Source: Streptomyces sp. JJ38
GTDB lineage: Bacteria; Actinomycetota; Actinomycetes; Streptomycetales; Streptomycetaceae
DNA length: 64,000 nucleotides
Direction of reading: 5' to 3'
NCBI RefSeq assembly: GCF_019303475.1
Contig: NZ_JABLSI010000022.1
Span: 1-64,000, forward strand
A model generated the notes under the pieces. The model saw nothing but the letters and a program-made list of their open reading frames with translations. It did no database searches and had not been told where the DNA came from. This document shows positions 273-15,975 of this stretch, piece after piece; positions within the stretch are counted from its first letter, which is position 1; every line of letters begins with the position of its first letter. Both the position numbers and the translations under genes were made by a program.

Positions 273-755
273 ATGACCACCACCGTGCGCCTTTCCCCGC
301 GCGTCGCCGTCCTGCCCGTGCACGCCGTCTACGGCGCAGCGGCCGGGCTGGTGGGCGGCGTGGGGATGGGCATCTGGATGTCGGTGTCCCGTCCGATGGC
401 GGACACCGCGATGATCACCATGGTCGCGGGCCTGCTCGGCTCCACCAACGCCCTCGTCGGCTGGCTTATCCACCTAGGCATCGCCCTGTTCGCCGGAATC
501 GGGTTCGGCGTCGTGCTGGGCCAGTTCGCCCAGCGGATGGCGCCTGCGGTCGTCCTCGGGTTGGCCTACGGCGCCCTGTGGTGGGTGCTGGGCGCGCTGT
601 GGATCATGCCCGCCAACATGGGCATGCCCGTCTTCGACTGGAACGACGTCTCCGCGTCCAGCCTCGGCGCTCACCTCGTGTTCGGGCTGCTCGCCGGGGT
701 GACCTACGCTGCCGTCGCCCGCAGGACGGGCGGAACCGACGCCGTCGGCCGATGA
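273..755 (+). CDS. Small four-helix membrane protein, function unknown
   Basis: The 160-residue product has a short basic N-terminus and four hydrophobic segments at about residues 15-38, 46-80, 88-112 and 128-148. Gly/Met-rich pairs (GGVGMGIWM) and a WWVLGALWIMP motif occur in or near them. I see no enzyme motif. The pattern resembles uncharacterised actinobacterial and archaeal membrane proteins of the DUF6789 kind, a family memory rather than a search result. The ATG at 273 follows a GGGGG-type ribosome binding site. It sits upstream of a Crp-like regulator on the same strand, about 180 bases apart, so co-transcription is possible. Confidence 0.75.
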   Translation: MTTTVRLSPRVAVLPVHAVYGAAAGLVGGVGMGIWMSVSRPMADTAMITMVAGLLGSTNALVGWLIHLGIALFAGIGFGVVLGQFAQRMAPAVVLGLAYGALWWVLGALWIMPANMGMPVFDWNDVSASSLGAHLVFGLLAGVTYAAVARRTGGTDAVGR

Positions 756-829
756 CGCCGAAGGCGAGGCCGGGGAATGGACTCCCACCGGGAGGCCCCG
801 AGCCACGCGGCGGCACCACGCACGGCGTT

Positions 830-861
830 CCGGTGCCCTACTGTCTGACTGACGGCACCGG
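830..861 (+). promoter_or_regulatory. 8-bp perfect inverted repeat upstream of the Crp-like gene
   Basis: CCGGTGCC at 830-837 is matched by GGCACCGG at 854-861 with a 16-base spacer. It lies 74 bases before the start of the Crp/Fnr-type regulator. It could be an autoregulatory operator or a leader hairpin; the sequence does not distinguish these. Confidence 0.35.
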
Positions 862-934
862 GGCGCTTGCCGTCCCCGCCTGGGGCGTCGCACCCCCGCC
901 CTGGGCCCCCGGGCGACGCGAGGAGACCCACCAC

Positions 935-1660
935 ATGTTCGAGGACCACGACGGCGGGACCGACGAGCGTGAGCGCACCTGGTGCGTCTCCGAGGTCGAC
1001 ATCTTCCGCGACCTGGACGACGCGGAGATGGCGGCCATCGCCGCCGCGGCGCCCATGAAGACCTACAGCGCTGGCGAGATCCTCCACTCCCCGCAGCAGC
1101 CGAGCGAGATCCTCTTCATCCTCAAGCGCGGCCGGGTCCGCATTTTCCGCGTCTCCGCCGAGGGCCGGGCCCTCACCTGCGCCATCATCAGCCCCGGCAC
1201 AATCTTCGGGGAGATGGCGCTGCTCGGCCAGCACATGTACGACAACTTCGCCGAGGCCCTCGACGACGTCGCCGTCTGTGTCATGAGCCGCGCCGACGTC
1301 CACACGTTCCTGCTTTCCGACGCCCGCATCGCCGCGCGGATCACCGAGATCCTCGGCCGACGCCTGGCCGACCTGGAACAACGCCTGTCCGACTCCGTGT
1401 TCAAGTCCGTCCCCCAGCGGATCGCCACGACGCTGACCACCCTCGCCACGCGCAATGACAGCGCTGCGGGGAGACTGCGACCCGGCGCCCGCCAACCGCA
1501 GATCGCGCTCACCCACGAGCAGCTCGCCGCACTGGCCGGCACCTCGCGGGAGACGTGCACCAAGGTCCTGCGCGAGTTCGCCGACCGCGGCATGCTCCGC
1601 CTTGCCCGGGGTCGTATCACCGTTCTGGATCCGGCCCGCCTGCACGACGAGGCCGGATAG
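935..1660 (+). CDS. Crp/Fnr-family transcriptional regulator
   Basis: The product is 241 residues, a normal Crp length. Residues about 20-130 form the cyclic-nucleotide-binding-like beta-roll, with GEILHSP, LFILKRGRVRI and FGEMALLG. Residues about 150-230 carry a Crp-type winged helix ending in an HTH (LAALAGTSRETCTKVLREF). After GEMALLG the sequence reads QHMYDNFAEAL, so the Arg-Ser that holds the cyclic-nucleotide phosphate in E. coli Crp is missing. The ligand is therefore probably not cAMP (inference). I chose ATG 935 because AGGAG lies 9 bases upstream; the frame stays open further upstream. It is a plausible controller of the CHRD and DUF4331 genes downstream. Confidence 0.9.
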   Translation: MFEDHDGGTDERERTWCVSEVDIFRDLDDAEMAAIAAAAPMKTYSAGEILHSPQQPSEILFILKRGRVRIFRVSAEGRALTCAIISPGTIFGEMALLGQHMYDNFAEALDDVAVCVMSRADVHTFLLSDARIAARITEILGRRLADLEQRLSDSVFKSVPQRIATTLTTLATRNDSAAGRLRPGARQPQIALTHEQLAALAGTSRETCTKVLREFADRGMLRLARGRITVLDPARLHDEAG

Positions 1661-1710
1661 CCGGTCAACCGGTGGCCGGGGCTCCGGCGGTGTCGGCAGA
1701 GTCGTCAGAC

Positions 1711-1732
1711 GTGTGCAATCCGGATCCCACAC
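1711..1732 (+). promoter_or_regulatory. GTGTG-N12-CACAC inverted repeat upstream of first CHRD gene
   Basis: GTGTG at 1711-1715 and CACAC at 1728-1732 form a 22-bp dyad centred near GGATCC. It lies 118 bases before the first CHRD gene and 50 bases after the Crp-like gene. A GTGT-N14-ACAC dyad of the same 22-bp length occurs 128 bases upstream of the second CHRD gene (4849-4870). Crp/Fnr proteins usually bind 16-22 bp dyads with outer GTG/CAC-type half-sites, so this is a candidate operator. Confidence 0.35.
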
Positions 1733-1849
1733 GGCGACGAAGGGAGGGTGACAGCCGCCCATGGATGTGGACGTTCGCAGCGCCGCATCCGGCGGAACCG
1801 AGCCCACGGGGTCTGCTTCGGGCCCGTGGTCACCGGAAGGGAAGCCACT

Positions 1850-2641
1850 GTGATATCCCGGAACGTCACCCGGATCGCCGCATTCGCCGCGCTCCCCGCA
1901 GCCCTCGTTCTCGGAGCGTCCGTGCCCGCGTCGGCGGCCGAGGACCAGGCGTACCAGATCGACCTGGAGACCCTGAACGACTCGGGCGCCAGCGGGACCG
2001 CGCTGGTCAGCCTGGAGGGCACGGAGCTGACCGTGAAGATCCGGGCCAACGGCCTGGTGCCGAACGCGCCGCACGCCCAGCACATCCACGGTTCCACGCA
2101 GGGCCGGGACTTCCACTGCCCCGAGCCCGACGCTGACCAGGACGGGGACGGCATCGTCAGCACGGCCGAGGGCGTGCCCGACTACGGCGACGTCAACATC
2201 TCGCTGACGACCGAGGGCGACACCTCCAAGGAGAGCGGCCTCGCGGTCGACCGCTTCCCGAAGGCGGACCAGGACGGCAACCTCTCCTACGAGCGGACCA
2301 TCACCGTCTCGCAGGATGTCGCGGACCACTTCAGGGACCTGCACCTCGTGCAGCACGGCATCGACGTGAACGGCAACGGGAAGTACGACGGCGAGGCGGG
2401 AAAGAGCTCGCTGGACGAGAAGCTGCCGCTTGAGGCCACCGCCCCGGCCAACTGCGGCATGGTGAAGGGCGCTTCCATCGGTGAGATGCCCGAGGGCGGC
2501 GTGGAGACTGGCACCGGACCGGGCGCTGACGCCGGCCGGAACGGCTCGGAGACGGTGCTGGCCATGGGCGGCGCCGGCCTGCTGGCCGCAGCCGCTGCCA
2601 CGGCCGTCGCCGTGCGGAACCGGCGCGGCGAGCGCGCGTGA
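1850..2641 (+). CDS. CHRD-domain exported protein with EF-hand-like loop
   Basis: The GTG at 1850 follows GGAAGG and gives a 263-residue protein with a clean Sec signal peptide (hydrophobic core, then PASAAED). An upstream in-frame start would bury the signal, so I rejected it. The CHRD-type domain carries PHAQHIHG (His75, His78, His80). A canonical 12-residue EF-hand loop follows at about 96-107 (D-x-D-x-D-G...E), and DVNGNGKYD lies near 178. The C-terminus is a transmembrane helix with a basic tail (RNRRGERA), the shape of a surface anchor, but no LPxTG-like motif precedes it. Its stop overlaps the start of a class F sortase, implying translational coupling. Function is unknown; metal or calcium binding is inferred from the loops and histidines. 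Confidence 0.85.
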   Translation: MISRNVTRIAAFAALPAALVLGASVPASAAEDQAYQIDLETLNDSGASGTALVSLEGTELTVKIRANGLVPNAPHAQHIHGSTQGRDFHCPEPDADQDGDGIVSTAEGVPDYGDVNISLTTEGDTSKESGLAVDRFPKADQDGNLSYERTITVSQDVADHFRDLHLVQHGIDVNGNGKYDGEAGKSSLDEKLPLEATAPANCGMVKGASIGEMPEGGVETGTGPGADAGRNGSETVLAMGGAGLLAAAAATAVAVRNRRGERA

Positions 2642-3321
2642 CCCGCGGCCCCTCCCGGTGGCCACGGTCCGGCCGACGGACTGGGCTGGCGGCCGCTGGG
2701 GTCCTCGCGGCGGTCTCCGTGGCCCTGGTGGTCACGGGGCTGCCGCGCGGCATGGACGAGCCGCAGGGGATGCCCGCTCCGCCGGGTACGGCTCAGGCTG
2801 AGCGTGCGCCGGAGGGCCCCGGCACCGGTACTCGGGAACGTGGCTCGAAGACGGTGACCATGCAGCGTTCCGTGCCCACCACCGTCTCGGTGCCCTCGCT
2901 CGGACTGTCCTCCCCGCTGGAGAAGCTCGGGAGAGACTCGTCCGGGGCGATGCGAACTCCGCGGGACACCGACCTGGCCGGCTGGTACGAGCCCGGTCCC
3001 GCGCCCGGTGAGCAGGGACCGGCCGTGATCGCGGGGCACGTCACGTGGGACGGGGAGCCCTCCGTCTTCTTCCGTCTGGGCGAACTGCGTGCGGGCGACG
3101 GCGTTCTCGTGGAGCGGGCGGACGGCAGCACGGCCGAGTTCACCGTGACACGCGTTGAGCAGTATCCCAAGGACGCGTTTCCCACGGTCGAGGTCTACCG
3201 CAACCTCGATCACGCGGGCCTGCGCCTGATCACCTGCGGTGGCGCCTACTCCCGGGAGGACAGCCGGTACGCGGACAACGTCGTCGTCTACGCCGAGCTC
3301 ACGGGGTCAGGCGGGCCCTGA
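2638..3321 (+). CDS. Class F sortase
   Basis: This is a membrane-anchored cysteine transpeptidase of 227 residues. One N-terminal transmembrane helix (about 15-35) is followed by a Pro/Gly-rich linker and the sortase barrel. The catalytic residues are visible: His134 in IAGHVTW, Cys200 in LITCGG and Arg210 in SRYADN. The GTG start overlaps the stop of the CHRD gene (GTGA), so the two are translated as a pair. The expected role is processing or anchoring of the preceding surface protein, yet that partner has no canonical sorting signal. The 3' end overlaps the convergent second sortase by 23 bases. Confidence 0.92.
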   Translation: MTRGPSRWPRSGRRTGLAAAGVLAAVSVALVVTGLPRGMDEPQGMPAPPGTAQAERAPEGPGTGTRERGSKTVTMQRSVPTTVSVPSLGLSSPLEKLGRDSSGAMRTPRDTDLAGWYEPGPAPGEQGPAVIAGHVTWDGEPSVFFRLGELRAGDGVLVERADGSTAEFTVTRVEQYPKDAFPTVEVYRNLDHAGLRLITCGGAYSREDSRYADNVVVYAELTGSGGP

Positions 3322-3925
3322 CGACGAGGTTGGCCCGGTAGGTGCGGCGTTCGGGATCCCAGTCGGCGCAGGTGATGAGCGTCAGTCGCGGCTCGGTGGT
3401 GGGTCCGTAGACCGCCTCGGAGGGAAAATCCTCACGGCTGTGGACGGCGGTGTCGGTGACGGTGAACTCGGCCGCGGGGCCGCGCTCACGGTCGACCAGG
3501 ACGCGGTCCCCCGGACGCAGGGCGCCCAGGCCGTAGAAGGCGGCTGGGCCACTTTCTGAATCCACGTGCCCGACGACGACCGCGTTCCCGTTCTGGCCCG
3601 GGGTTGGCGTGTGGGTGAACCAGCCGGCGTGGTCGGCGTCGCCCGGGAGAGCGATGGAACCGTCGACGTCCAGACCGACCGGTTCCGTCTCCACCTCCAG
3701 GCCGACGGCGGGCACGCGGACGCGGTGGGGCTGTGCCCGTGCAAGGGCTCGTGTTGAGGAGGCCGGCGGCGCGGCGCGCGGTGCGGTGGCCGCCGGAGTC
3801 GGCGGGAGCCGGGACGAACCGGCGGTGGGGAGCCCGGAGACGACGAGGGCAACTCCGATGGCGGTGCAGGCGGTGGCCGCCGCGGTGCAGGCACCGCGGC
3901 GGCCACCGAGCCGGATTCGGGGCAC
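3299..3925 (-). CDS. Second class F sortase
   Basis: The product is 208 residues. It has an N-terminal transmembrane helix (about 14-35), an Ala/Pro linker and a sortase domain. Catalytic residues are His120 (VVVGHVDSE), Cys186 (LITCADW) and Arg197 (TYRANLVV). It starts with GTG 15 bases after the second CHRD gene, so the two form a unit. It differs clearly from the first sortase in linker and active-site surroundings (TCADWDPE instead of TCGGAYSRE), which argues against a very recent duplication. Together the two CHRD-sortase units make a mirror image around 3310. Confidence 0.92.
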   Translation of the reverse strand: MPRIRLGGRRGACTAAATACTAIGVALVVSGLPTAGSSRLPPTPAATAPRAAPPASSTRALARAQPHRVRVPAVGLEVETEPVGLDVDGSIALPGDADHAGWFTHTPTPGQNGNAVVVGHVDSESGPAAFYGLGALRPGDRVLVDRERGPAAEFTVTDTAVHSREDFPSEAVYGPTTEPRLTLITCADWDPERRTYRANLVVRARLTP

Positions 3926-3940
3926 AACCCGGCTCTCGTC

Positions 3941-4720
3941 TCAGCTGACTCGGCCGGTGCGGCGGCGCAGGTAGAGCGCGCCTCCGGCGGCTGCCAGTAG
4001 ACCGGCACCGCCGGCGACAGCCAGCGTGTTGCCGCCGCCGGTCCCCTGGCTACCGCCGAGACCGCCCTTGACCGGCCCCTTGGCGGCCTTCATGAGCGGA
4101 CCGCAGAGGGCGGGGTTGGTGGCCTCGGCCGGAAGCTTGGGGTCGAGCTCTGAGGGCCCGAGGACGTTGTCGTACTTACCGTTGCCGTTGACGTCGGTGC
4201 CGTGCACGACCACGACGGCGGTGCCGTCACGCAGGCTCTTGGCGGCCTCCGCGCTGACGTCGATGGTGCGGTGGTAGTCGACCTTCGGCCCGACGGGGAA
4301 GCGGTCGACGGCCAGGGCCGAATCGGGGCTGGTGTCGCCCGTGGTGGTGAGCGAGGTCCCGATGCCGCCGTAGAAGGGCGCACCGTCGGTGGTGAAGATG
4401 GACTTCATCCCGTTGACTGTGCGGGCCGCCGAGGCGGGCGGGCACTGGCCCTTCGCCGCGATGTGGAAGTGCTGTGCGTGCGGGGCCTTGGCCAGCAGAC
4501 CGTGTGCGGTGACGCTGACGGTCGCCTTGTGACCCTTGAGCTTGACCGTGGCGGTGCCCGAGCCCTTGACCTTGCTGAAGGGCACCGGCTCCAGATGGGC
4601 CTGCAGGTGCACCGTGTCGTGCTTGCCCCCGCCGTCCGCGGAGGCGGACGGTGCCAGGGCGATGCCGGGTGCGACCACGGCCACGGTGGCCATGGCGACA
4701 GCAGTAGTGCGGTTCATCAT
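3941..4720 (-). CDS. Second CHRD-domain exported protein
   Basis: The ATG at 4720 follows GGAAAGAG and yields a 259-residue protein with a signal peptide (ALAPSASADGG). A second ATG lies immediately after it at 4717. It shares with the first CHRD protein the HAQHFHI histidine motif, SLTTTGDTSPDSALAVDRFP, DVNGNGKYD, LPAEATNPALCG and a C-terminal membrane helix with a basic tail (LYLRRRTGRVS). The EF-hand loop of the first copy is absent; the corresponding stretch is a shorter PPASAARTVNG. No LPxTG-like sorting motif is seen. It forms a unit with the second class F sortase. Function is unknown. Confidence 0.85.
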   Translation of the reverse strand: MMNRTTAVAMATVAVVAPGIALAPSASADGGGKHDTVHLQAHLEPVPFSKVKGSGTATVKLKGHKATVSVTAHGLLAKAPHAQHFHIAAKGQCPPASAARTVNGMKSIFTTDGAPFYGGIGTSLTTTGDTSPDSALAVDRFPVGPKVDYHRTIDVSAEAAKSLRDGTAVVVVHGTDVNGNGKYDNVLGPSELDPKLPAEATNPALCGPLMKAAKGPVKGGLGGSQGTGGGNTLAVAGGAGLLAAAGGALYLRRRTGRVS

Positions 4721-4848
4721 GTCTCTTTCCGCCGAGGGGAATCCGACGCGCGACGGCGAGGGGCTCAAAGGCGCGTCGCGGGGGGTCTGCACGCCGTGGT
4801 GTCTCGATCGTCAGCCTGTGCCCGCCCTTCCTCCGCTGCCACTCCAGC

Positions 4849-4870
4849 GTGTCCTCCGGAGCCGCCACAC
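4849..4870 (-). promoter_or_regulatory. GTGT-N14-ACAC inverted repeat upstream of second CHRD gene
   Basis: GTGT at 4849-4852 and ACAC at 4867-4870 form a 22-bp dyad 128 bases upstream of the second CHRD start. Read on the minus strand it begins GTGTG, like the element at 1711-1732, and both contain TCCGGA in the middle. The equivalent placement before both CHRD genes suggests one shared regulator. Confidence 0.35.
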
Positions 4871-5294
4871 ACTCCCGTCGCGCATGCGGAAGGACATCTC
4901 AACTGCCTTGCCTTTTAACGTCGTTCCAGCCTGCGAAGGCCATGTCTCGGGGATCAGTTCTGCGCCTTCCAAGCTCATCGACCAGTCGAGTGACCACCCC
5001 GTACCCGGAGACGACCACGGCGCTCACGTCGCGAGTCGGCCGCGGCGTCCGAAGCCCCGCCGTAGCGGACGATGTCTTGCGTCTGCCGCTCACTCCGCAC
5101 TGGGCGTCGGCGCTGTGGGCCACTGCCTGTTCGGAGCAACGGAAGGTACTCATTCCGAGTGATCCTGCTCCCTCCTTATGTGTCGTTCACGTCCCTGGTC
5201 ACCTGGGCATTCCGTGGTTTCCAGCGTCTTGGTGCGCCGGGACACCCCGTAGCGGTGATCCCCGCTGTCGGGTGTCCGGTGATGGTTTGCTGCG

Positions 5295-5309
5295 GTCACG
5301 CGCGGTGAC
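5295..5309 (+). promoter_or_regulatory. GTCAC-N5-GTGAC dyad upstream of DUF4331 gene
   Basis: GTCAC at 5295-5299 and GTGAC at 5305-5309 flank GCGCG. The same half-sites (GTCAC-N4-GTGAC) form the core of the long palindrome at 7130-7155 upstream of the TPR gene. Two related dyads in front of consecutive genes of one locus suggest a common regulator. Confidence 0.35.
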
Positions 5310-5501
5310 GAGGCCGCGCGCGGCGCCCGAGCTTTCGAGCGGTGCCGAGTTGCCCCGGGCGAGCCGCCTGTGCGCCGACGAATCGGCGCCTGCCCGCATC
5401 GGCCGGAGCTCTCACCCCGTCGCTGACATCGGCGTACCGGGGCAGGGACCTCCGCCGACAGGCGGCTTCCTGCCTGCCCGGCGCCGGGAGAGTAGGTTCG
5501 T

Positions 5502-7109
5502 TTGACCAGGCACACCCGCCGTGCCGACCGAGGCAGGCTGTTCAGCCGGTCCCTAGCCGGACTCGGCGCCACCACCCTCGCGGCGTCCGTCGCCGTGGCC
5601 GGGCTGGCCCCGGGCGTCAGCTCGGCGTCCAGCCACCGTGAGGCACCGCTGATCGCCGGCGATCCGCGCGCGGACAACACCGACCTGTACGCCTTCACCA
5701 GCCCGGACCGGCCGGACACGGTGACCTTCGTGGCGAACTGGATTCCCTTCGAAGAGCCCGACGGCGGCCCGAACTTCTACCAGTTCGCGGACGATGCCCG
5801 CTACAACATCAAGATCGACAGCGACGGCGACGGCCGGGCCGACCTCACCTACTCCTGGAAGTTCCGCACCCACGTCCGGGACGCCGAGGGCCAGTTCCTC
5901 TACAACACCGGACCGGTGACGTCGCTCGACGACCCTGACCTGAACATCCGGCAGACGTACTCGCTCACCGTCACCGACCGCTGGGGCCAGCGGCACAAGC
6001 TGCTGCGTGACGCGCCTGTGGCGCCGTCCCGCGTCGGCAACGCCTCGATGCCCGACTACGCGGCGCTGCGCGACGAGGCCGTGGTGGAGGCCGGGCGCGG
6101 CACGCGCAGCTTCGCCGGTCAGACCGAGGACCCGTTCTTCGCCGACCTGCGGGTCTTCGACCTCCTTTACGGTGGCGACCTCAGCAAGCGGGGCAAGGAC
6201 ACCTTCGCCGGGTACAACGTCAACACCATCGCCCTCCAGGTCCCCAAGAAGGCCCTCGCGCTGCACCACAGCCCGAAGCGCAACCCGGTCATCGGCGTGT
6301 GGAGCACCACCGACCGCAAGGGCGCGGACGTGACCGGCAAGGGCGCCGGACACGACCGGTGGCGGCAGGTCTCCCGCCTGGGCAATCCCCTGGTCAATGA
6401 GGTCGTCGTACCGCTGAAGTTCAAGGACGCGTTCAACACGCTGGAGCCGTTCCAGGACCGCACGGTCCAGCCGGTCGTGGACAAGGTCCTCGACCCGATC
6501 CTGCCCAAGCTCGTCGAGCAGGTCTACGGCATCCCCGCGCCGCCCGCGCCGCGCAGAGACCTGTTCGAGATCTTCCTCACCGGGATCTGTGAGGAGTGCG
6601 GGCCGATCAAGGCCGATCTCAACTCGCACCGCCTCAACCGCGACGCCCGCCCAGAGACCATCGTTCCGGCCGAGGAACTACGCCTGAACATGAGCGTTCC
6701 GGTGACCGAGCAGCCCCAGCGGCTCGCCGTCCTCGCCGGTGACCTGGGCGGTTGGCCGAACGGCCGTCGGCTGACCGACGACGTCGTCGACATCGCGCTG
6801 CAGGCCGCCGAAGGCGCCGCGCAGACCGGTGAGCTGGTGGACGCTTTGGCCGAGGGTGACAAGGTCGACGCCAACGACGTGACGTTCGGCGCCCGGTTCC
6901 CGTACGTGGCGCTGCCGCACCAGGGCTCCACCCCGGACGGCCGCGCGGCCAAGACCTCGGCTACGGCCTCCGAATCCGCCGTGAAGCGGGCCGTGGCCCC
7001 GGCCGTATCGACGGGCCTGGCCACGGCGGGCATCGGGCTGCTGGGCTTCGGCGGCCTGCGCATGTGGCGCGAGCGTGACCGCTCGCGGCGCCATCGCCAC
7101 GGCCACTGA
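5502..7109 (+). CDS. DUF4331 exported protein with C-terminal membrane anchor
   Basis: The 535-residue product starts at TTG 5502 after GGGAG. It has an Arg-rich leader and a signal peptide ending near SSASSHREAPL. SHREAPLIAGDPRADNTDLYAF is the hallmark opening of DUF4331 proteins, here split for length: SHREAPLIAGDPRA, then DNTDLYAF. A calcium-type loop D-S-D-G-D-G lies at 106-111. Further hallmark stretches are FADDARYNI, VNTIALQVPK and GNPLVNEVV. A transmembrane helix (about 500-520) and a basic His-rich tail (RSRRHRHGH) end the protein. DUF4331 has no assigned function to my knowledge. The TPR and NicO transporter genes follow on the same strand, suggesting a metal-linked envelope role. 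Confidence 0.9.
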   Translation: MTRHTRRADRGRLFSRSLAGLGATTLAASVAVAGLAPGVSSASSHREAPLIAGDPRADNTDLYAFTSPDRPDTVTFVANWIPFEEPDGGPNFYQFADDARYNIKIDSDGDGRADLTYSWKFRTHVRDAEGQFLYNTGPVTSLDDPDLNIRQTYSLTVTDRWGQRHKLLRDAPVAPSRVGNASMPDYAALRDEAVVEAGRGTRSFAGQTEDPFFADLRVFDLLYGGDLSKRGKDTFAGYNVNTIALQVPKKALALHHSPKRNPVIGVWSTTDRKGADVTGKGAGHDRWRQVSRLGNPLVNEVVVPLKFKDAFNTLEPFQDRTVQPVVDKVLDPILPKLVEQVYGIPAPPAPRRDLFEIFLTGICEECGPIKADLNSHRLNRDARPETIVPAEELRLNMSVPVTEQPQRLAVLAGDLGGWPNGRRLTDDVVDIALQAAEGAAQTGELVDALAEGDKVDANDVTFGARFPYVALPHQGSTPDGRAAKTSATASESAVKRAVAPAVSTGLATAGIGLLGFGGLRMWRERDRSRRHRHGH

Positions 7110-7129
7110 TCCCGGCCACAGCGACGGAC

Positions 7130-7155
7130 CGGCCGGTCACCGCGGTGACCGGCCG
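7130..7155 (+). promoter_or_regulatory. 26-bp perfect palindrome between DUF4331 and TPR genes
   Basis: Bases 7130-7142 are the exact reverse complement of 7143-7155, with no loop. The core is GTCACCGCGGTGAC. It begins 21 bases after the DUF4331 stop and lies 80 bases before the TPR start. No T-run follows. The absence of a loop fits a protein-binding site at least as well as a terminator. Confidence 0.55.
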
Positions 7156-7235
7156 ACGTCCGCCCCTTCGAACAGCCGCCTCCGGTTCGAGGCGCAATCT
7201 CCGCCCCAGCCCGCTACCCGGAAGAGAGACCGCCC

Positions 7236-8588
7236 GTGATGGACCGGCTCCGACGCACCCGGTGCCGTCCCGCCCTGATCGCCTGCGCTCTGGGCCTGAC
7301 GGCGACCCTGTTCGCCGCCGGAGCCATGCTGCTCCCACCCCCCGACGGGCCCGCGTCAACACGAGAGGACGCGGCTCCGGCGACAACCGGACGGCCGGGC
7401 GATGACCTGGCGGCTCCCGGCGGCGACCGGGACATCCAGGCGCTGCGGGAACGGTTGCGCCGTGTCCCGGCCGATCACACCGGCTGGGCCGAGCTGGGAG
7501 TCCGCTACGTCCAGCGGGCACAGACCTCGGCAGACCCGCAGTACTACGCCAAGGCCGAGCGGGCCCTGCGCCGCTCCCGGACCCTCTCCGAGGAGAACAA
7601 CCACCTGGCGTCCATGGGCCTCGGCGCCCTCGCCGCAGCACGCCACGACTTCACGACCGCGCTGCAGCACGCCCGGGAAGCCGTCCACGCCAACCCGCAC
7701 CACGCACCCTCGTACGGCGTCCTGTCCGACGCCTACCTGCAACTCGGCCGATACGACGAGGCGTTCAAGGCCACTCAGCGGATGGTCGACCTCCAGCCCG
7801 CGACTCCCTCCCTGGCCCGCGCGTCCTACACATGGGAGCTGCGCGGGGAGACGGAGCGTGCGGAGGGGCTGATGCGGCGCGCACTGGACGCGGCCGCGGG
7901 ACCGCACGACATCGTCTTCGCTCGCAACCATCTCGCCCTCCTCGCGCTCGACGACGGCCGGCCACGCGACGCCCTGGTCCACGCTGAGAAGGGACTGAGG
8001 TCGGCACCGCACGAGCCCGCCCTGCTCGCGGCACGCGCCCGCGCCTATGCGGCGCTCGGCCGCACCGAACAGGCGGTCGCCGACTACCGGTCCGCCATCG
8101 CACGTGTTCCCCAGCCCTCGACCATCCTGGCGCTCGCCGACCTCCTGCAGTCCCTCGGCCGCACTCGTGAGGCGGAGGAGCAGTACGAGCTGTTCCGCAC
8201 CACGACGCGTCTCTTCCGCACCGCCGGGGTGGCCCCGGAAGCCGAGGCCGTCCTCTTCTCCGCCGACCACGGCGACATCCGCCAGGCCCTCGCGCTGGGC
8301 CGCGCAGCCGCCACCCAGCGGCCGTTCGTCACTTCCCTGGACGCCTACGCCTGGGCCCTCCACCGCGCGGGACGGTCTCGGGAGGCGCTGCGCTGGGCCG
8401 ACCGCGCCCTCGCCCTCGGCACCCGAAGCGCACTCTTCCACTACCACCGCGGCCGCATGCACCAGGCACTCGACGACACCGACGCCGCGCGCGGCGACCT
8501 CAGCCGCGCCCTGGACATCGACCCCCACTTCCACCCCCTGCACGCGCCCCGCGCCCGTGCCGCCCTCGACGAGATCGGCCCGACCTGA
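7236..8588 (+). CDS. Exported or membrane-anchored TPR protein
   Basis: The product is 450 residues. A basic N-terminus and one hydrophobic segment (about 13-33) act as a signal or anchor, then at least six tetratricopeptide repeats cover about 65-445 (for example AALGRTEQAVADYRSAIARVP and AWALHRAGRSREALRWADRALALG, each a helix pair). TPR domains are protein-interaction scaffolds. The start is GTG 7236, directly followed by ATG 7239, after GGAAGAGAG. The stop overlaps the start of the NicO transporter by one base, so it is probably an assembly or partner protein for that transporter or for DUF4331 (inference). Confidence 0.88.
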   Translation: MMDRLRRTRCRPALIACALGLTATLFAAGAMLLPPPDGPASTREDAAPATTGRPGDDLAAPGGDRDIQALRERLRRVPADHTGWAELGVRYVQRAQTSADPQYYAKAERALRRSRTLSEENNHLASMGLGALAAARHDFTTALQHAREAVHANPHHAPSYGVLSDAYLQLGRYDEAFKATQRMVDLQPATPSLARASYTWELRGETERAEGLMRRALDAAAGPHDIVFARNHLALLALDDGRPRDALVHAEKGLRSAPHEPALLAARARAYAALGRTEQAVADYRSAIARVPQPSTILALADLLQSLGRTREAEEQYELFRTTTRLFRTAGVAPEAEAVLFSADHGDIRQALALGRAAATQRPFVTSLDAYAWALHRAGRSREALRWADRALALGTRSALFHYHRGRMHQALDDTDAARGDLSRALDIDPHFHPLHAPRARAALDEIGPT

Positions 8589-10255
8589 TGACCGGCACCC
8601 GCCGCCGTATCCCCGCCGTGTGCGCCCTGCTCGCCGCCGTGTGCGCGGGCACACTCGCCACCGCGTGGCCCGCCGCCGCCCACCCGCTGGGCAACTTCAC
8701 CGTCAACCACTACCTCGGACTGCGGCTGACCCCCGACGGGATCGACACCACCCTCGTCGTCGACCGCGCCGAACTCGCCGCCGCCCAGGAACGCACCGCC
8801 GTCGACACCGACAGCGACGGCACCTCAAGCGCTCCCGAACGCGAACGCTACGCCGCCCGGCAGTGCGACGAGCGGGCCCGGGACCTGCACGTCACCGTGG
8901 CCGACAGCCCCCGGATCACGACGGTGACCTCCGCGACGTTCACCTACCGCCCCGGCGAGGCCGGGCTCCGCACCAGCCGCCTGGAATGCGCGCTGCACAC
9001 CCCCGCCGACCTCGCCACATCCGCCGAGGTGTCCGTCACCGACTCCCACCAGGCACCGCGTATCGGCTGGCACGAACTGACCGCAGTCGGCGACGGCGTG
9101 ACCCTGACCGACTCCACCGCGCCAACCAAATCCGTCACCGACGAGCTTCGCCAGTACCCCGACGACCTGCTCATGGAGCCGTTGGACCAACGCAGCGCGA
9201 CCCTGAGCACGGAACCCGGCTCAGCCACCGGCGAAGGCCCCGGAACCGCCGCACCCGCGCTCCCGGAGCTCGGCCCGATCAGCTCGGCCTACACCGCACT
9301 GAGCGACTTCTTCACCGATCTCGTCGGCAGGCGCGAACTCACGCTTCCCGTGGGCCTGCTGGCCCTCTCCCTGGCCGTGGTCCTGGGTGCCTCGCACGCC
9401 GTCCTGCCCGGACACGGCAAGACCGTCATGGCCGCCTACCTCGCAGGGCGCCGCGGCCGGGCCCAGGACGCCGTCACCGTGGGAGCCACCGTCACCGTCA
9501 CGCACACCGCGGGCGTCCTCGCCGTCGGCCTCCTCCTGCCCGTCGTCACCTCGGTGGCGGGAGAGACGGTCCTCGGCTGGCTGACTCTGGCCAGCGGCCT
9601 GCTGGTCACCGCGATCGGCCTCAGCCTGCTCAGCGGCGCCCTACGCGGGCGCACCCTCGACCACCACCATCACCACAGCCACGGTCACCACCACCCACAT
9701 GACCACGACCACCATCCCGGCCACAGCCACGGTCCCGGCCACGACCGCAGCCACGGAGGCGCCGCACACCCGGCCGAGGCCCCCTCCGTCCCCCGCAGCC
9801 GGGCCGCCACGGCAAGCCAGACCCAGCCCGGCACCGTGGCCGTCCTCACCAAGACCACACCCGCCACGCCAGAACACCACGGGCACCAGCACGCCCACCC
9901 CCACCGGCACCCCCACCCGGGCAACCGAAGAGGACTCATCGGCATCGGCATCGCCGGCGGGCTCGTCCCCAGCCCTTCCGCGCTCGTCGTACTGCTGGGC
10001 GCCATCGCCCTCGGCCGCACACCCTTCGGAATCCTGCTCGTCCTCGGCTACGGCCTGGGAATGGCCGCAACCCTCACCGCCGCAGGGATTCTGCTCGTCC
10101 GATTCCGCGACCACGCGGTGGCGACGTGGAGCTCCCGCCTGCCCGAAAACGCTTTGGTACGCCGGATCAGCCGACTTGGTGCCCCACTCACGGCCACCCT
10201 GGTCGTCCTCGTCGGGCTCGGCCTCACCATCCGCGCGCTCATCGGTGCCTGGTGA
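8588..10255 (+). CDS. NicO/RcnA-type nickel/cobalt transporter with His-rich loop
   Basis: The 555-residue product has a signal peptide ending at WPAAAHPLGNF. An extracytoplasmic N-terminal domain (about 30-240) includes a canonical EF-hand-like loop at 73-84 (D-T-D-S-D-G...E). Six membrane segments follow in two blocks. The NicO signature is ASHAVLPGHGKTVMAAYL at about 265; the second block has IAGGLVPSPSALVVLLGAI. Between the blocks is a cytoplasmic or external loop with two histidine clusters (about 358-393 and 430-446), typical of metal-sensing or metal-storing loops. Homologues move Ni2+ or Co2+; direction (uptake or efflux) cannot be read from sequence. It overlaps the TPR gene by one base. 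No cobalamin riboswitch was found upstream. Confidence 0.9.
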   Translation: MTGTRRRIPAVCALLAAVCAGTLATAWPAAAHPLGNFTVNHYLGLRLTPDGIDTTLVVDRAELAAAQERTAVDTDSDGTSSAPERERYAARQCDERARDLHVTVADSPRITTVTSATFTYRPGEAGLRTSRLECALHTPADLATSAEVSVTDSHQAPRIGWHELTAVGDGVTLTDSTAPTKSVTDELRQYPDDLLMEPLDQRSATLSTEPGSATGEGPGTAAPALPELGPISSAYTALSDFFTDLVGRRELTLPVGLLALSLAVVLGASHAVLPGHGKTVMAAYLAGRRGRAQDAVTVGATVTVTHTAGVLAVGLLLPVVTSVAGETVLGWLTLASGLLVTAIGLSLLSGALRGRTLDHHHHHSHGHHHPHDHDHHPGHSHGPGHDRSHGGAAHPAEAPSVPRSRAATASQTQPGTVAVLTKTTPATPEHHGHQHAHPHRHPHPGNRRGLIGIGIAGGLVPSPSALVVLLGAIALGRTPFGILLVLGYGLGMAATLTAAGILLVRFRDHAVATWSSRLPENALVRRISRLGAPLTATLVVLVGLGLTIRALIGAW

Positions 10256-11482: not shown

Positions 11483-12865
11483 CTAGCACTCGATGATGTT
11501 CACCGCGAGGCCGCCGCGGGCGGTCTCCTTGTACTTGACACTCATGTCGGCGCCGGTGTCCCTCATCGTCTTGATGGCCTTGTCCAGCGAGACGTGGTGG
11601 CGGCCGTCGCCGCGCAGCGACATCCGGGCGGCCGTCACGGCCTTGACCGCCGCCATGCCGTTGCGCTCGATGCACGGGATCTGCACCAGGCCGCCGACCG
11701 GGTCGCAGGTCAGGCCCAGGTTGTGCTCGATGCCGATCTCGGCGGCGTTCTCCATCTGCTCGGGGGTGGCGCCCAGCACCTCGGCGAGGCCGCCGGCCGC
11801 CATCGAGCAGGCGGAGCCCACCTCGCCCTGGCAGCCGACCTCGGCGCCGGAGATCGAGGCGTTCTCCTTGAACAGCATGCCGATCGCGCCGGCCGCGAGC
11901 AGGAAGCGGACCACGCCGTCGTCGTCCGCGCCCGGGACGAAGTTCACGTAGTAGTGCAGCACGGCCGGGATGATCCCGGCGGCGCCGTTGGTCGGGGCGG
12001 TCACGACGCGTCCGCCGGCCGCGTTCTCCTCGTTGACGGCCATGGCGTAGAGCGTCACCCACTCCATGGCGTGCGCCTGGGCGTCGCCCTCGGCACGGAG
12101 CTGGCGGGCCGTCGTCGCGGCCCGGCGGCGCACCTTCAGCCCGCCGGGCAGGATGCCCTCCTGCGAGCTGCCGCGCGCCACGCACTCCCGCATGACCTGC
12201 CAGATCTCCAGCAGACCGGCCCGGATCTCCTCCTCGGTGCGCCACGCCTTCTCGTTCTCCAGCATCAGCGCGGAGATCGACAGGCCCGTCTCGCGGGTCA
12301 GCCGCAGCAGCTCGTCGCCGGTGCGGAACGGGTAGCGCAGGACGGTGTCGTCGAGCTTGATGCGGTCCTCGCCGACCGCGTCCTCGTCGACGACGAAGCC
12401 GCCGCCGACCGAGTAGTAGGTCTTCTCCAGAAGCGGTCGGCCCTCGGCGTCGTAGGCGAAGAGGGTCATGCCGTTGGCGTGGTAGGGGAGGGAGCGCCGA
12501 CGGTGCAGGATCAGATCGGTGTCGGCGTCGAAGGCGATCTCGTGGGCGTCGCCTATCTCGGTGCCGAGCAGCCGCAGGGTGCGCTCGCCGCGCACCCGCT
12601 CCACCCAGGCGTCGGCCTGGGCGACGTCCACGGTGCGGGGGGAGTGGCCCTCCAGACCGAGGAGGACGGCCTTCGGCGTGCCGTGGCCGTGTCCGGTCGC
12701 GCCGAGCGAGCCGAAGAGCTCGGCGCGGACGGAGGCGGTCTGCGCCAGCACTCCGTCGTTCTTCAGCCGGCCGGCGAACATGCGTGCCGCGCGCATCGGG
12801 CCGACGGTGTGCGAGGAGGACGGGCCGATGCCGATGGAGAACAGGTCGAAGACGGAAATGGCCAC
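11483..12865 (-). CDS. sdaA: L-serine ammonia-lyase (iron-sulfur, single chain)
   Basis: This enzyme deaminates L-serine to pyruvate and ammonia using a [4Fe-4S] cluster. The 460-residue chain carries the N-terminal [13 protein letters not shown] signature. Cluster cysteines are Cys345, Cys387 and Cys398, spaced 42 and 11 as in the Legionella enzyme. A C-terminal Cys460 (NIIEC) matches the tail cysteine that plugs the active site in that family. The GTG start follows GGGAG. It is the last gene after gcvT, gcvH and glyA, so the glycine riboswitch upstream of gcvT probably reaches it, although a hairpin separates it from glyA. It gives the operon an outlet from glycine through serine to pyruvate. 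Confidence 0.97.
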
Positions 12866-12996
12866 GGGGCGGACTCCCTTTCCCGGTACGGGGGATCTTC
12901 CCGGCTCCCCGGACGGCGCCGGGAGGTGTTCGGCGGTGCCGGGGAGCTCGGGCGGTGCCCCACGCTCGTGGGTGGAGCTTTGTGCGGACGGTGGCG

Positions 12997-13032
12997 CCGG
13001 GACGCCGCACGGGGTGCCGTGCGGCGTCCCGG
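12997..13032 (-). terminator. Perfect 16-bp hairpin between glyA and sdaA
   Basis: Bases 12997-13012 pair perfectly with 13017-13032 around a GGTG loop, 10 bases after the glyA stop. It would terminate or attenuate transcription before sdaA. No T-run follows, as is common in Streptomyces. Confidence 0.8.
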
Positions 13033-13042
13033 CGGGTCCGGG

Positions 13043-14317
13043 TTACTTGCCCAGACCCGGGTACAGCGGGTGCTTCTCGGCGAGCGCCGTCACCCGGACG
13101 GCGAGCGCCTTGGCCTTGGCCTCGTCGAAGTCCGGCAGCAGCGCCTCGGCGATGACGTCGGCGACCTCGCGGAAGTCGTCCTCGCCGAAGCCGCGGGTGG
13201 CCAGCGCCGGGGTGCCGATGCGCAGCCCGGAGGTGACCATCGGCGGACGCGGGTCGTTGGGCACCGCGTTGCGGTTGACGGTGATGCCGATCTCGTGCAG
13301 CCGGTCCTCCGCCTGCTGGCCGTCGAGCTCGCTGTTGCGCAGGTCGACCAGCACGAGGTGCACGTCGGTGCCCCCGGAGAGCACCGCGACGCCCGCCTCG
13401 ACGGCGTCCGGCCGGGTCAGCCGCTCGGCGAGCAGCTTCGCCCCTGCCAGCGTACGCTGCTGGCGCTCCTTGAACTCCTCGCTCGCCGCGATCTTGAACG
13501 AGACCGCCTTGGCCGCGATGACGTGCTCCAGCGGGCCGCCCTGCTGACCGGGGAAGACCGCTGAGTTGATCTTCTTGGCGTGTTCCTGCTTGGACAGGAT
13601 CACGCCACCGCGCGGGCCACCGAGCGTCTTGTGCGTCGTGGTGGTGACGACGTCGGCGTGGGGCACCGGGTTGGGGTGCAGCCCGGCCGCGACCAGGCCC
13701 GCGAAGTGCGCCATGTCCACCATGAGCAGCGCGTCGGTGGCGTCCGCGATCCGGCGGAAGGCGGCGAAGTCCAGCTGCCGCGGGTAGGCGGACCAGCCCG
13801 CGATGATCAGCTTGGGCTTGTGCTCCGTGGCGAGACGCTCGACCTCCTCCATGTCGACGAGCCCCGTCTCGGCGTCCACGTGGTACGCGACGACGTTGTA
13901 GAGCTTGCCGGAGAAGTTGATCCGCATCCCGTGCGTGAGGTGGCCACCGTGGGCCAGGTCCAGGCCCATGATGGTGTCGCCCGGCTTGAGCAGGGCGAAC
14001 ATCGCCGCCGCGTTGGCGGAGGCGCCGGAGTGCGGCTGGACGTTCGCGGCCTCGGCGCCGAACAGCGCCTTGATCCGCTCCCGGGCGATGTCCTCGACGA
14101 CGTCGACGTGCTCGCAGCCGCCGTAGTAGCGGCGGCCCGGGTAGCCCTCCGCGTACTTGTTGGTCAGGACCGAGCCCTGGGCTTCGAGGGCCGCCACCGG
14201 AGCGAAGTTCTCCGAGGCGATCATCTCCAGGGTGGACTGCTGCCGGTGGAGCTCGGCGTCGACGGCGGCGGCGACGTCCGGGTCCACCTCGTGGAGGGAA
14301 CTGTTCAGAAGCGACAT
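13043..14317 (-). CDS. glyA: Serine hydroxymethyltransferase
   Basis: This PLP enzyme interconverts serine and glycine with tetrahydrofolate and methylene-tetrahydrofolate. The product is 424 residues, the usual length. Hallmarks are the N-terminal [23 protein letters not shown], the PLP-lysine motif [14 protein letters not shown] at about 225-238 and the closing [16 protein letters not shown]. It lies 29 bases after gcvH and before sdaA. In this glycine-responsive operon it most likely uses the methylene-THF made by GcvT to convert glycine into serine. It is likely a second glyA beside a housekeeping copy elsewhere (inference). Confidence 0.98.
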
Positions 14318-14346
14318 GGAATGTGTCCGTCCGGGTCGGGAGGGGA

Positions 14347-14727
14347 TCAGCCGGCGGTGTAGGCGGTGTACTCGTCCGCCGAGAGCAGGTCGTCCTGCTC
14401 GCCGGTGACGCGCACCTTGAAGAGCCAGCCGCCCTCGAAGGGGGCGCTGTTGACGAGGCTCGGGTCGTCCACGACGTCCTGGTTGGCCTCCACGACCTCG
14501 CCGCTGACCGGCGAGTACAGGTCGCTGACCGACTTCGTGGACTCCAGCTCACCGCAGGTCTCGCCGGCGGTCACGGTGTCACCCACCTCGGGCAGGTCGA
14601 CGTAGACGACGTCACCGAGGGCGCTGGACGCGTGCTCGGTGATGCCCACCGTGGCGACGCCGTCCTCGGCGGCCGACAGCCACTCGTGCTCCTTGCTGTA
14701 ACGGAGCTGCTCAGGGTTGTTGGTCAT
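14347..14727 (-). CDS. gcvH: Glycine cleavage system H protein
   Basis: This is the lipoylated carrier that shuttles the aminomethyl group between the P, T and L proteins. The 126-residue product has the hybrid lipoyl fold, with the modified lysine at Lys65 in [11 protein letters not shown] and the preceding [20 protein letters not shown] chose ATG 14727 ([17 protein letters not shown]), which matches the family start and has GGGAG upstream; an earlier in-frame start adds unrelated residues. It lies between gcvT and glyA. gcvP is not in the window. Confidence 0.98.
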
Positions 14728-14829
14728 GGTGTGGATTCTCCCGGATGCTGGTGGGGCGGGTGCCACAGGGGAAAGGTGACACGGGCGAAGGGGAAGAGGG
14801 AAAGCGGTGAGCGGCGAGCGGTGTGACGC

Positions 14830-15975
14830 TCAGCGTTCCCGCTTGTAGAAGGGCAGCGCCACGACGGTGTACGGCTCGTGCTTGCCGCGGATGTCGACGG
14901 CCACGCCCGTCGTGCCGGGCGCCGCGTGCGCGGCGTCCACGTAGGCCATGGCAATCGGCTTGCCCAGGGTGGGGGAGGGGGCGCCGGAGGTGACCTCGCC
15001 GATCGGCGTGCCGTCGGCGGCGACCACGGTGAAGCCCGTGCGGGGCACGCGGCGGCCCTCGGCCACCAGCCCGACCAGCACCCGCGGCGGGGCGGCGGCG
15101 GCCCTCGAAGCGGCGGCCTCCAGGGCCTCACGGCCGACGAAGCGGCCCTCGTTCGTCGTCTTCTCGAACTTGACCACCCGGCCCTGACCGGCGTCGAACG
15201 GCGTGGTGGCGCGGGTCAGCTCGTTCCCGTACAGCGGCATGCCCGCCTCCAGGCGCAGGGTGTCGCGGCAGGACAGGCCGCAGGGCACCAGGCCCTCGCC
15301 CTCCCCGGCCCCCAGCAGGGCCTGCCACAGCTTCTCCGCGTCCTCGGGGGCGACGAACAGCTCGAAGCCGTCCTCGCCGGTGTAACCGGTGCGGGCGATG
15401 AGAGCGGACACCCCGGCGACGGTCCCGGGGAGCCCGGCGTAGTACTTCAGGCCCTCCAGGTCGGCGTCGGTGAGCGAGGCGAGGATGCCGTGGGCCTTCG
15501 GACCCTGCACGGCCAGCAGCGCGTAGGCGTCCCGGTCGTCTCGCACGGCGGCGTCGAATCCGGCCTGCCGCTCGGTGAGCGCGTCCAGCACCACCTGGGC
15601 GTTCGAGGCGTTGGCCACCACCATGAAGGTGTCCTCGGCCAGCCGGTAGACGATCAGGTCGTCCAGAATGCCGCCGTTCTCGTCGCAGATCATGGTGTAG
15701 CGGGCGCGGCCCGGCTTCAGCGCCGAGAGGAAGCCGACGAGGGCGTGGTCCAGCAGTTCACCGGCCTGCGGGCCGCTGACGGTGATCTCGCCCATGTGGG
15801 AGAGGTCGAAGAGGCCGGCGCGGGTGCGGACGGCGTGGTGCTCGTCACGCTCGCTGCCGTAGCGCAGCGGCATGTCCCAGCCGGCGAAGTCGGTCATCGT
15901 CGCCCCCAGCGCGCGGTGGACGGCGTCGAGGGCGGTTCGTCGGGGCTGGGCGTTCTCAGGCAGGGCGTCAGACAT
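14830..15975 (-). CDS. gcvT: Aminomethyltransferase (glycine cleavage T protein)
   Basis: It transfers the methylene group from H-protein-bound aminomethyl to tetrahydrofolate, releasing ammonia. The product is 381 residues. Visible family motifs are MTDFAGWDMPLRYGS, GLFDLSHMGEI, ARYTMICDENGGILDDLIVYRL, RTGYTGEDGFELF and CRDTLRLEAGMPLYGNEL, with the conserved aspartate in the YTMIC-D region. It is the first gene of the operon and directly follows a tandem glycine riboswitch. It should therefore be induced by excess glycine. Confidence 0.98.
   Translation of the reverse strand: MSDALPENAQPRRTALDAVHRALGATMTDFAGWDMPLRYGSERDEHHAVRTRAGLFDLSHMGEITVSGPQAGELLDHALVGFLSALKPGRARYTMICDENGGILDDLIVYRLAEDTFMVVANASNAQVVLDALTERQAGFDAAVRDDRDAYALLAVQGPKAHGILASLTDADLEGLKYYAGLPGTVAGVSALIARTGYTGEDGFELFVAPEDAEKLWQALLGAGEGEGLVPCGLSCRDTLRLEAGMPLYGNELTRATTPFDAGQGRVVKFEKTTNEGRFVGREALEAAASRAAAAPPRVLVGLVAEGRRVPRTGFTVVAADGTPIGEVTSGAPSPTLGKPIAMAYVDAAHAAPGTTGVAVDIRGKHEPYTVVALPFYKRER

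Follow-up and report, generated by a model that had tools for sequence, protein, structure and literature searches.

A conserved DUF4331-TPR-NicO cassette of Actinomycetota and its CHRD-class F sortase neighbors in a soil bacterium

In Actinoplanes missouriensis, deletion of all four class F sortases was reported to cause no phenotypic change, and two tail-anchored neighbors without a known pentapeptide motif were left open as possible sortase substrates (2026 study, PMC13251363). The CHRD domains of human chordin have a solved SOD-like Greek-key fold in which the metal-binding histidines are not conserved (PMC13382577). The same fold is predicted for the CHRD proteins described here, which differ from those of chordin in keeping an invariant QHxH motif and a third histidine. 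The RcnA/NicO and HupE/UreJ transporters share transmembrane histidine motifs and a His-rich loop with the NicO protein of our locus, and HupE_UreJ_2 is found in the related cassette of Pseudoalteromonas. The NicO protein differs from these transporters in its additional exported N-domain, in scores below the curated cut-offs, and in the constant presence of DUF4331 in genomes that carry its subtype. To our knowledge, no function is known for DUF4331, and no paper on this family was found in our literature search.

The window, that is, the whole stretch of DNA analyzed in this study, comprises the initial 64 kb of contig C33 from a genome of 5.9 Mb. Judged by DUF4331, this genome is nearest to Streptomyces, with 81% to S. 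sp. JJ66. The seven genes named in the earlier note are all present (Table 1), although the names CHRD and NicO rest on sub-threshold matches. Homologs occur in Streptomyces, Kitasatospora, Actinomadura, Micromonosporaceae, and other Actinomycetota; therefore, these ORFs are genes. The two stop/start overlaps on which that note had based its operons are confirmed in the ORF coordinates: the stop codon of CHRD1 and the GTG start of sortase 1 share bases 2638–2641, and the stop codon of the TPR gene and the ATG of NicO share base 8588. The two sortase genes converge and share 23 bases. A scan for promoters and terminators gave no signal above chance. The gene at 273–755 encodes a membrane protein with no family match. 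Positions 11483–15975 look like a routine metabolic cluster, with genes for serine dehydratase and glycine cleavage as well as glyA.

Table 1 Genes of the two surface modules in the window, with the basis of each assignment
Feature	Position	Strand	Basis
CHRD1, exported, predicted Cu/Zn-SOD fold, EF-hand-like loop, GGVETG-TM-RR tail	1850..2641	+	Sub-threshold Pfam CHRD match, AF2 model
Class F sortase 1, 4-base overlap with CHRD1	2638..3321	+	NF033748; GHV, LITC, and SRYADN catalytic-type motifs
Class F sortase 2	3299..3925	-	NF033748, just under cut-off
CHRD2, exported CHRD/SOD-type protein, GGLGGSQ-TM-RRR tail, without EF-hand loop	3941..4720	-	Alignment; second pair on contig C85
DUF4331 protein, signal peptide, SSHREAP domain start, DSDGDGRAD loop, TM helix at the C-terminus, no sorting motif	5502..7109	+	PF14224
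TPR protein, extracytoplasmic	7236..8588	+	TPR families; family present in 113 DUF4331 loci
NicO/RcnA-like transporter, exported N-domain, His-rich loop, HxxxPGHGK and THT motifs	8588..10255	+	PRK10019

The DUF4331, TPR, and NicO genes form a previously undescribed, obligate conserved cassette and probably constitute one functional unit. The DUF4331 protein of the window is a full-domain member of PF14224, matching model positions 1–421 (E = 1.9e-153, 512 bits). Among 148 Streptomycetales genomes, full-length DUF4331 is represented by 83 copies in 77 genomes, and the NicO subtype of the window by 75 copies in 70 genomes, a count from which four weaker NicO matches limited to the transmembrane part were left out. 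All 70 NicO genomes have a full-length DUF4331 (Fisher's test, 1.4e-34, a value that overstates independence since the sequences are related), and 73 of the 75 NicO copies are located within 8 kb of a DUF4331 gene. The seven genomes with DUF4331 only all encode a divergent form. Divergent DUF4331 proteins at two loci (L128:9428-10819 and L131:7691-9328) lack a signal peptide, their first residues being MSSHREAP, and have no NicO nearby; the assignment of this start to the group rests on these two aligned members. NicO never occurs without DUF4331, whereas DUF4331 can lack NicO, suggesting that NicO probably serves DUF4331.

Tblastn and de novo neighborhood clustering placed the three genes together in Streptomyces, Kitasatospora, Actinomadura, Micromonosporaceae, and Frankia-like MAGs. 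Of 20 distant Actinomycetota loci, most have the TPR gene next to DUF4331, and more than half contain NicO. In Lichenicola, Comamonadaceae, and Pseudoalteromonas, which belong to the phylum Pseudomonadota, the genes follow a comparable order, with a transporter of the HupE type. In plasmid records, DUF4331 is accompanied by TPR-like and HupE/UreJ genes in Pseudomonadota and by TPR in Bacteroidota. In plasmids of Paracoccus and Sulfitobacter, DUF4331 has a set of type II secretion genes and an A24 peptidase as neighbors (L185:6917-15341 and L245:4253-11326), as expected for an exported protein. No match to DUF4331 was found in phages. Co-occurrence by chance only, which the earlier note had named as a possible refutation, is not borne out for DUF4331, TPR, and NicO, and the trio is a true conserved unit. 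A record titled Microtetraspora glauca (L055) has the same gene order as the Streptomyces loci and is possibly mislabeled or contaminated.

The class F sortase is tied genetically to CHRD and, in a second, paralogous type of cassette (DUF4331-sortase-TPR), to DUF4331. Sortase 1 is a class F member according to NF033748 (189 bits; cut-off 166), and sortase 2 scores slightly below the cut-off (158 bits). The tail consensus GG[VI]x[AT]GxGG (search pattern G[GAS][VIALM]x[TA]GxG), followed by a TM helix and a basic tail, is present in 30 of the 32 DUF4331 proteins encoded directly before a class F sortase and in 2 of the 105 that have no sortase next to them (Fisher's test, 1.5e-25, with related sequences counted and independence thus overstated). 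Of these two exceptions, one is located at the end of a contig; the sortase of the other escaped the gene caller but is seen by tblastn. In a separate phylum-wide set, the motif is present in both DUF4331 proteins with a sortase and in none of the 18 without. The DUF4331 tail in the window does not contain the sorting motif, and on this count the protein does not qualify as a class F substrate.

CHRD1 and CHRD2, as read from their sequences, have the features of a class F substrate: a signal peptide, the motif, a TM helix, a basic tail, and an adjacent class F sortase. In almost every complete locus, such CHRD tails (GGVETG and GGLGGSQ) have a class F sortase as neighbor. When compared with the NCBIfam GVDTG sorting domain NF058571 (cut-off 29 bits), the CHRD tails of some relatives pass (39.1 and 31.7 bits) and the CHRD1 tail scores 26.9 bits. 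In contrast, the DUF4331 tails mostly carry the A-for-T variant GGVxAGxGG and remain below the cut-off at 20–28 bits. Contig C63 carries a row of genes (L222:7779-10773) for an ECF-like sigma factor, a TM-tailed DUF4397 protein, a class F sortase, and a probable anti-sigma factor.

CHRD1 is predicted to adopt a Cu/Zn-SOD fold with three candidate copper-binding histidines. The scores for Pfam CHRD (PF07452) are 21.4 bits for CHRD1 and 20.1 bits for CHRD2, with a gathering threshold of 24.1. The AF2 model of CHRD1 (pLDDT 75, core over 90) matched Cu/Zn SOD in the PDB with a Foldseek E-value of 9.3e-6 and a VIA Z score of 12.3 (rmsd 2.6, 115 aligned). By sequence, CHRD had no match in the PDB, CHRD1 had no match to PF00080 (Sod_Cu) at E-values up to 10, and PF00080 was over its cut-off in none of 99 Streptomycetales genomes. 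QHxH, H169, and C90/C202 are invariant in an alignment of 24 CHRD sequences, and hhalign placed QHIH of CHRD on HxH of SodC (E = 5.8e-4, probability 29%). CHRD shares the predicted fold and the HxH register with SodC, whereas the bridging histidine, the zinc ligands, and Arg143 appear to be missing, the ligand mapping being based on motifs. Distant SodC-like proteins of Actinomycetota with VPDTG or LPDTG tails (L253 and L254) suggest wall-anchored SODs. For DUF4331, a beta-sandwich combined with helices was modeled (pLDDT 75.6); the family gave no significant match in the PDB by sequence and no confident match by fold. The alignment for folding was built from the window and genome loci, without plasmid loci.

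The NicO protein of the window matched PRK10019 (E = 6.9e-23) with 81 bits, below the curated cut-off of 195, and had no match to PF03824. Its exported N-domain has a predicted mature N-terminal histidine and, in the alignment, two conserved cysteines. Handling of a metal or of calcium is plausible based on families and motifs. DsbD-like electron transfer by the transporter was rejected, as the PF13386 match is weak and no cysteine pair is conserved in the transmembrane part. Outside the window, an ECF sigma factor with an RskA-type anti-sigma factor usually accompanies the cassette. Other recurrent neighbors, each family annotated from one representative, include fasciclin, DUF4394, ferritin-like, and cupredoxin proteins, and a NiCoT permease in one related group. 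Adjacency to NiCoT was discarded as a general proof of nickel, being restricted to a few related loci and absent from the cassette surroundings in all 148 Streptomycetales genomes. The Crp-like regulator that the earlier note placed at the edge has a clear family match (Pfam/NCBIfam); its orthologs occur in just six other genomes, none of them beside DUF4331, and it was dropped as a cassette member and regulator.

We propose that two surface modules lie side by side in the window, a DUF4331-TPR-NicO unit and self-contained CHRD-class F sortase pairs, and give this reading a probability of roughly 45%. DUF4331 would be an exported envelope protein, held in the window by its C-terminal TM helix, with the TPR protein and the NicO transporter as a dedicated accessory pair. 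NicO and TPR would most likely move a Ni/Co-type divalent metal across the membrane, and this movement may either load DUF4331 or let DUF4331 capture metal outside. The class F sortase would cleave the neighboring CHRD protein at the GGVxTG-type motif and fix it, with its predicted SOD fold, to the cell wall, where it probably binds copper via the three candidate histidines. The linkage, tail motifs, and conserved residues in this proposal come from sequence and the SOD fold from prediction; which metal is moved and in which direction, as well as its loading and the attachment to the wall, are what we infer.

A system of metal homeostasis, in which NicO would export excess Ni/Co, DUF4331 and TPR would buffer the metal outside, and an ECF sigma/RskA pair would act as a switch, seems to us somewhat unlikely. 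NicO groups with RcnA-type exporters, and an ECF sigma factor and an anti-sigma factor (RskA_C in the member tested) recur in 31 and 30 DUF4331 neighborhoods, respectively, and both also occur in Pseudoalteromonas. However, a general exporter should occur without DUF4331 in some genomes and none was found, and no metalloregulator stood out among the recurrent neighbor clusters. The same obligate partnership would be left unexplained if DUF4331 bound polysaccharides or matrix at the cell surface, with a transporter for a substrate other than Ni/Co, a reading we consider unlikely. Its surface location and a weak structural likeness to CBM74 of Sas6, the best solved match of the DUF4331 model (VIA Z 8.2, rmsd 4.2, 195 aligned), agree with such a role, but Z scores near 8 are common by chance for such models.

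The earlier note had assembled all seven genes into one cell-surface machine for metal or calcium capture, which now appears improbable. CHRD1, DUF4331, and NicO all show loops of the EF-hand type, and CHRD and sortase genes are found beside the trio in several lineages with differing orders (L039, L048, L059, L060, L121, and L130). In the 148-genome comparison, no more than 10 kb separates CHRD from DUF4331 in the window, G003, G009, and G025, and in G088 CHRD is close to a DUF4331 that is partial; among the named loci, L039, L048, L059, and L060 show such closeness. For the 148 genomes, this proximity is estimated to exceed chance (about 0.1 expected under random placement), but in few lineages. 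Against this, CHRD-sortase is located away from DUF4331 in about 20 of the 25 genomes having it, and the DUF4331 of the window lacks the sorting motif. Furthermore, a second CHRD2-sortase 2 pair in this genome is kept beside a mere 89-codon C-terminal remnant of NicO (L218:9847-12043, contig C85); the window locus seems to have been duplicated there, and the copy to have decayed. The neighborhood search that the note had called for linked DUF4331 with TPR and NicO, and CHRD with sortase, and separated these halves in most genomes.

Beyond the two-module reading, DUF4331-TPR-NicO/HupE might be a system shared across phyla: a dedicated transporter, together with a TPR factor, would metallate an exported protein, which each phylum would then display with its own surface machine (a class F sortase, a membrane tail, or type II secretion), a speculative view that we hold to be doubtful. 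The obligate transporter partner of DUF4331 provides a first functional handle on this widespread family. The link between tail motif and sortase, the most testable result of this study, yields candidate class F sortase substrates together with a consensus, and such an enzyme-substrate link could help answer what the poorly understood class F sortases do.
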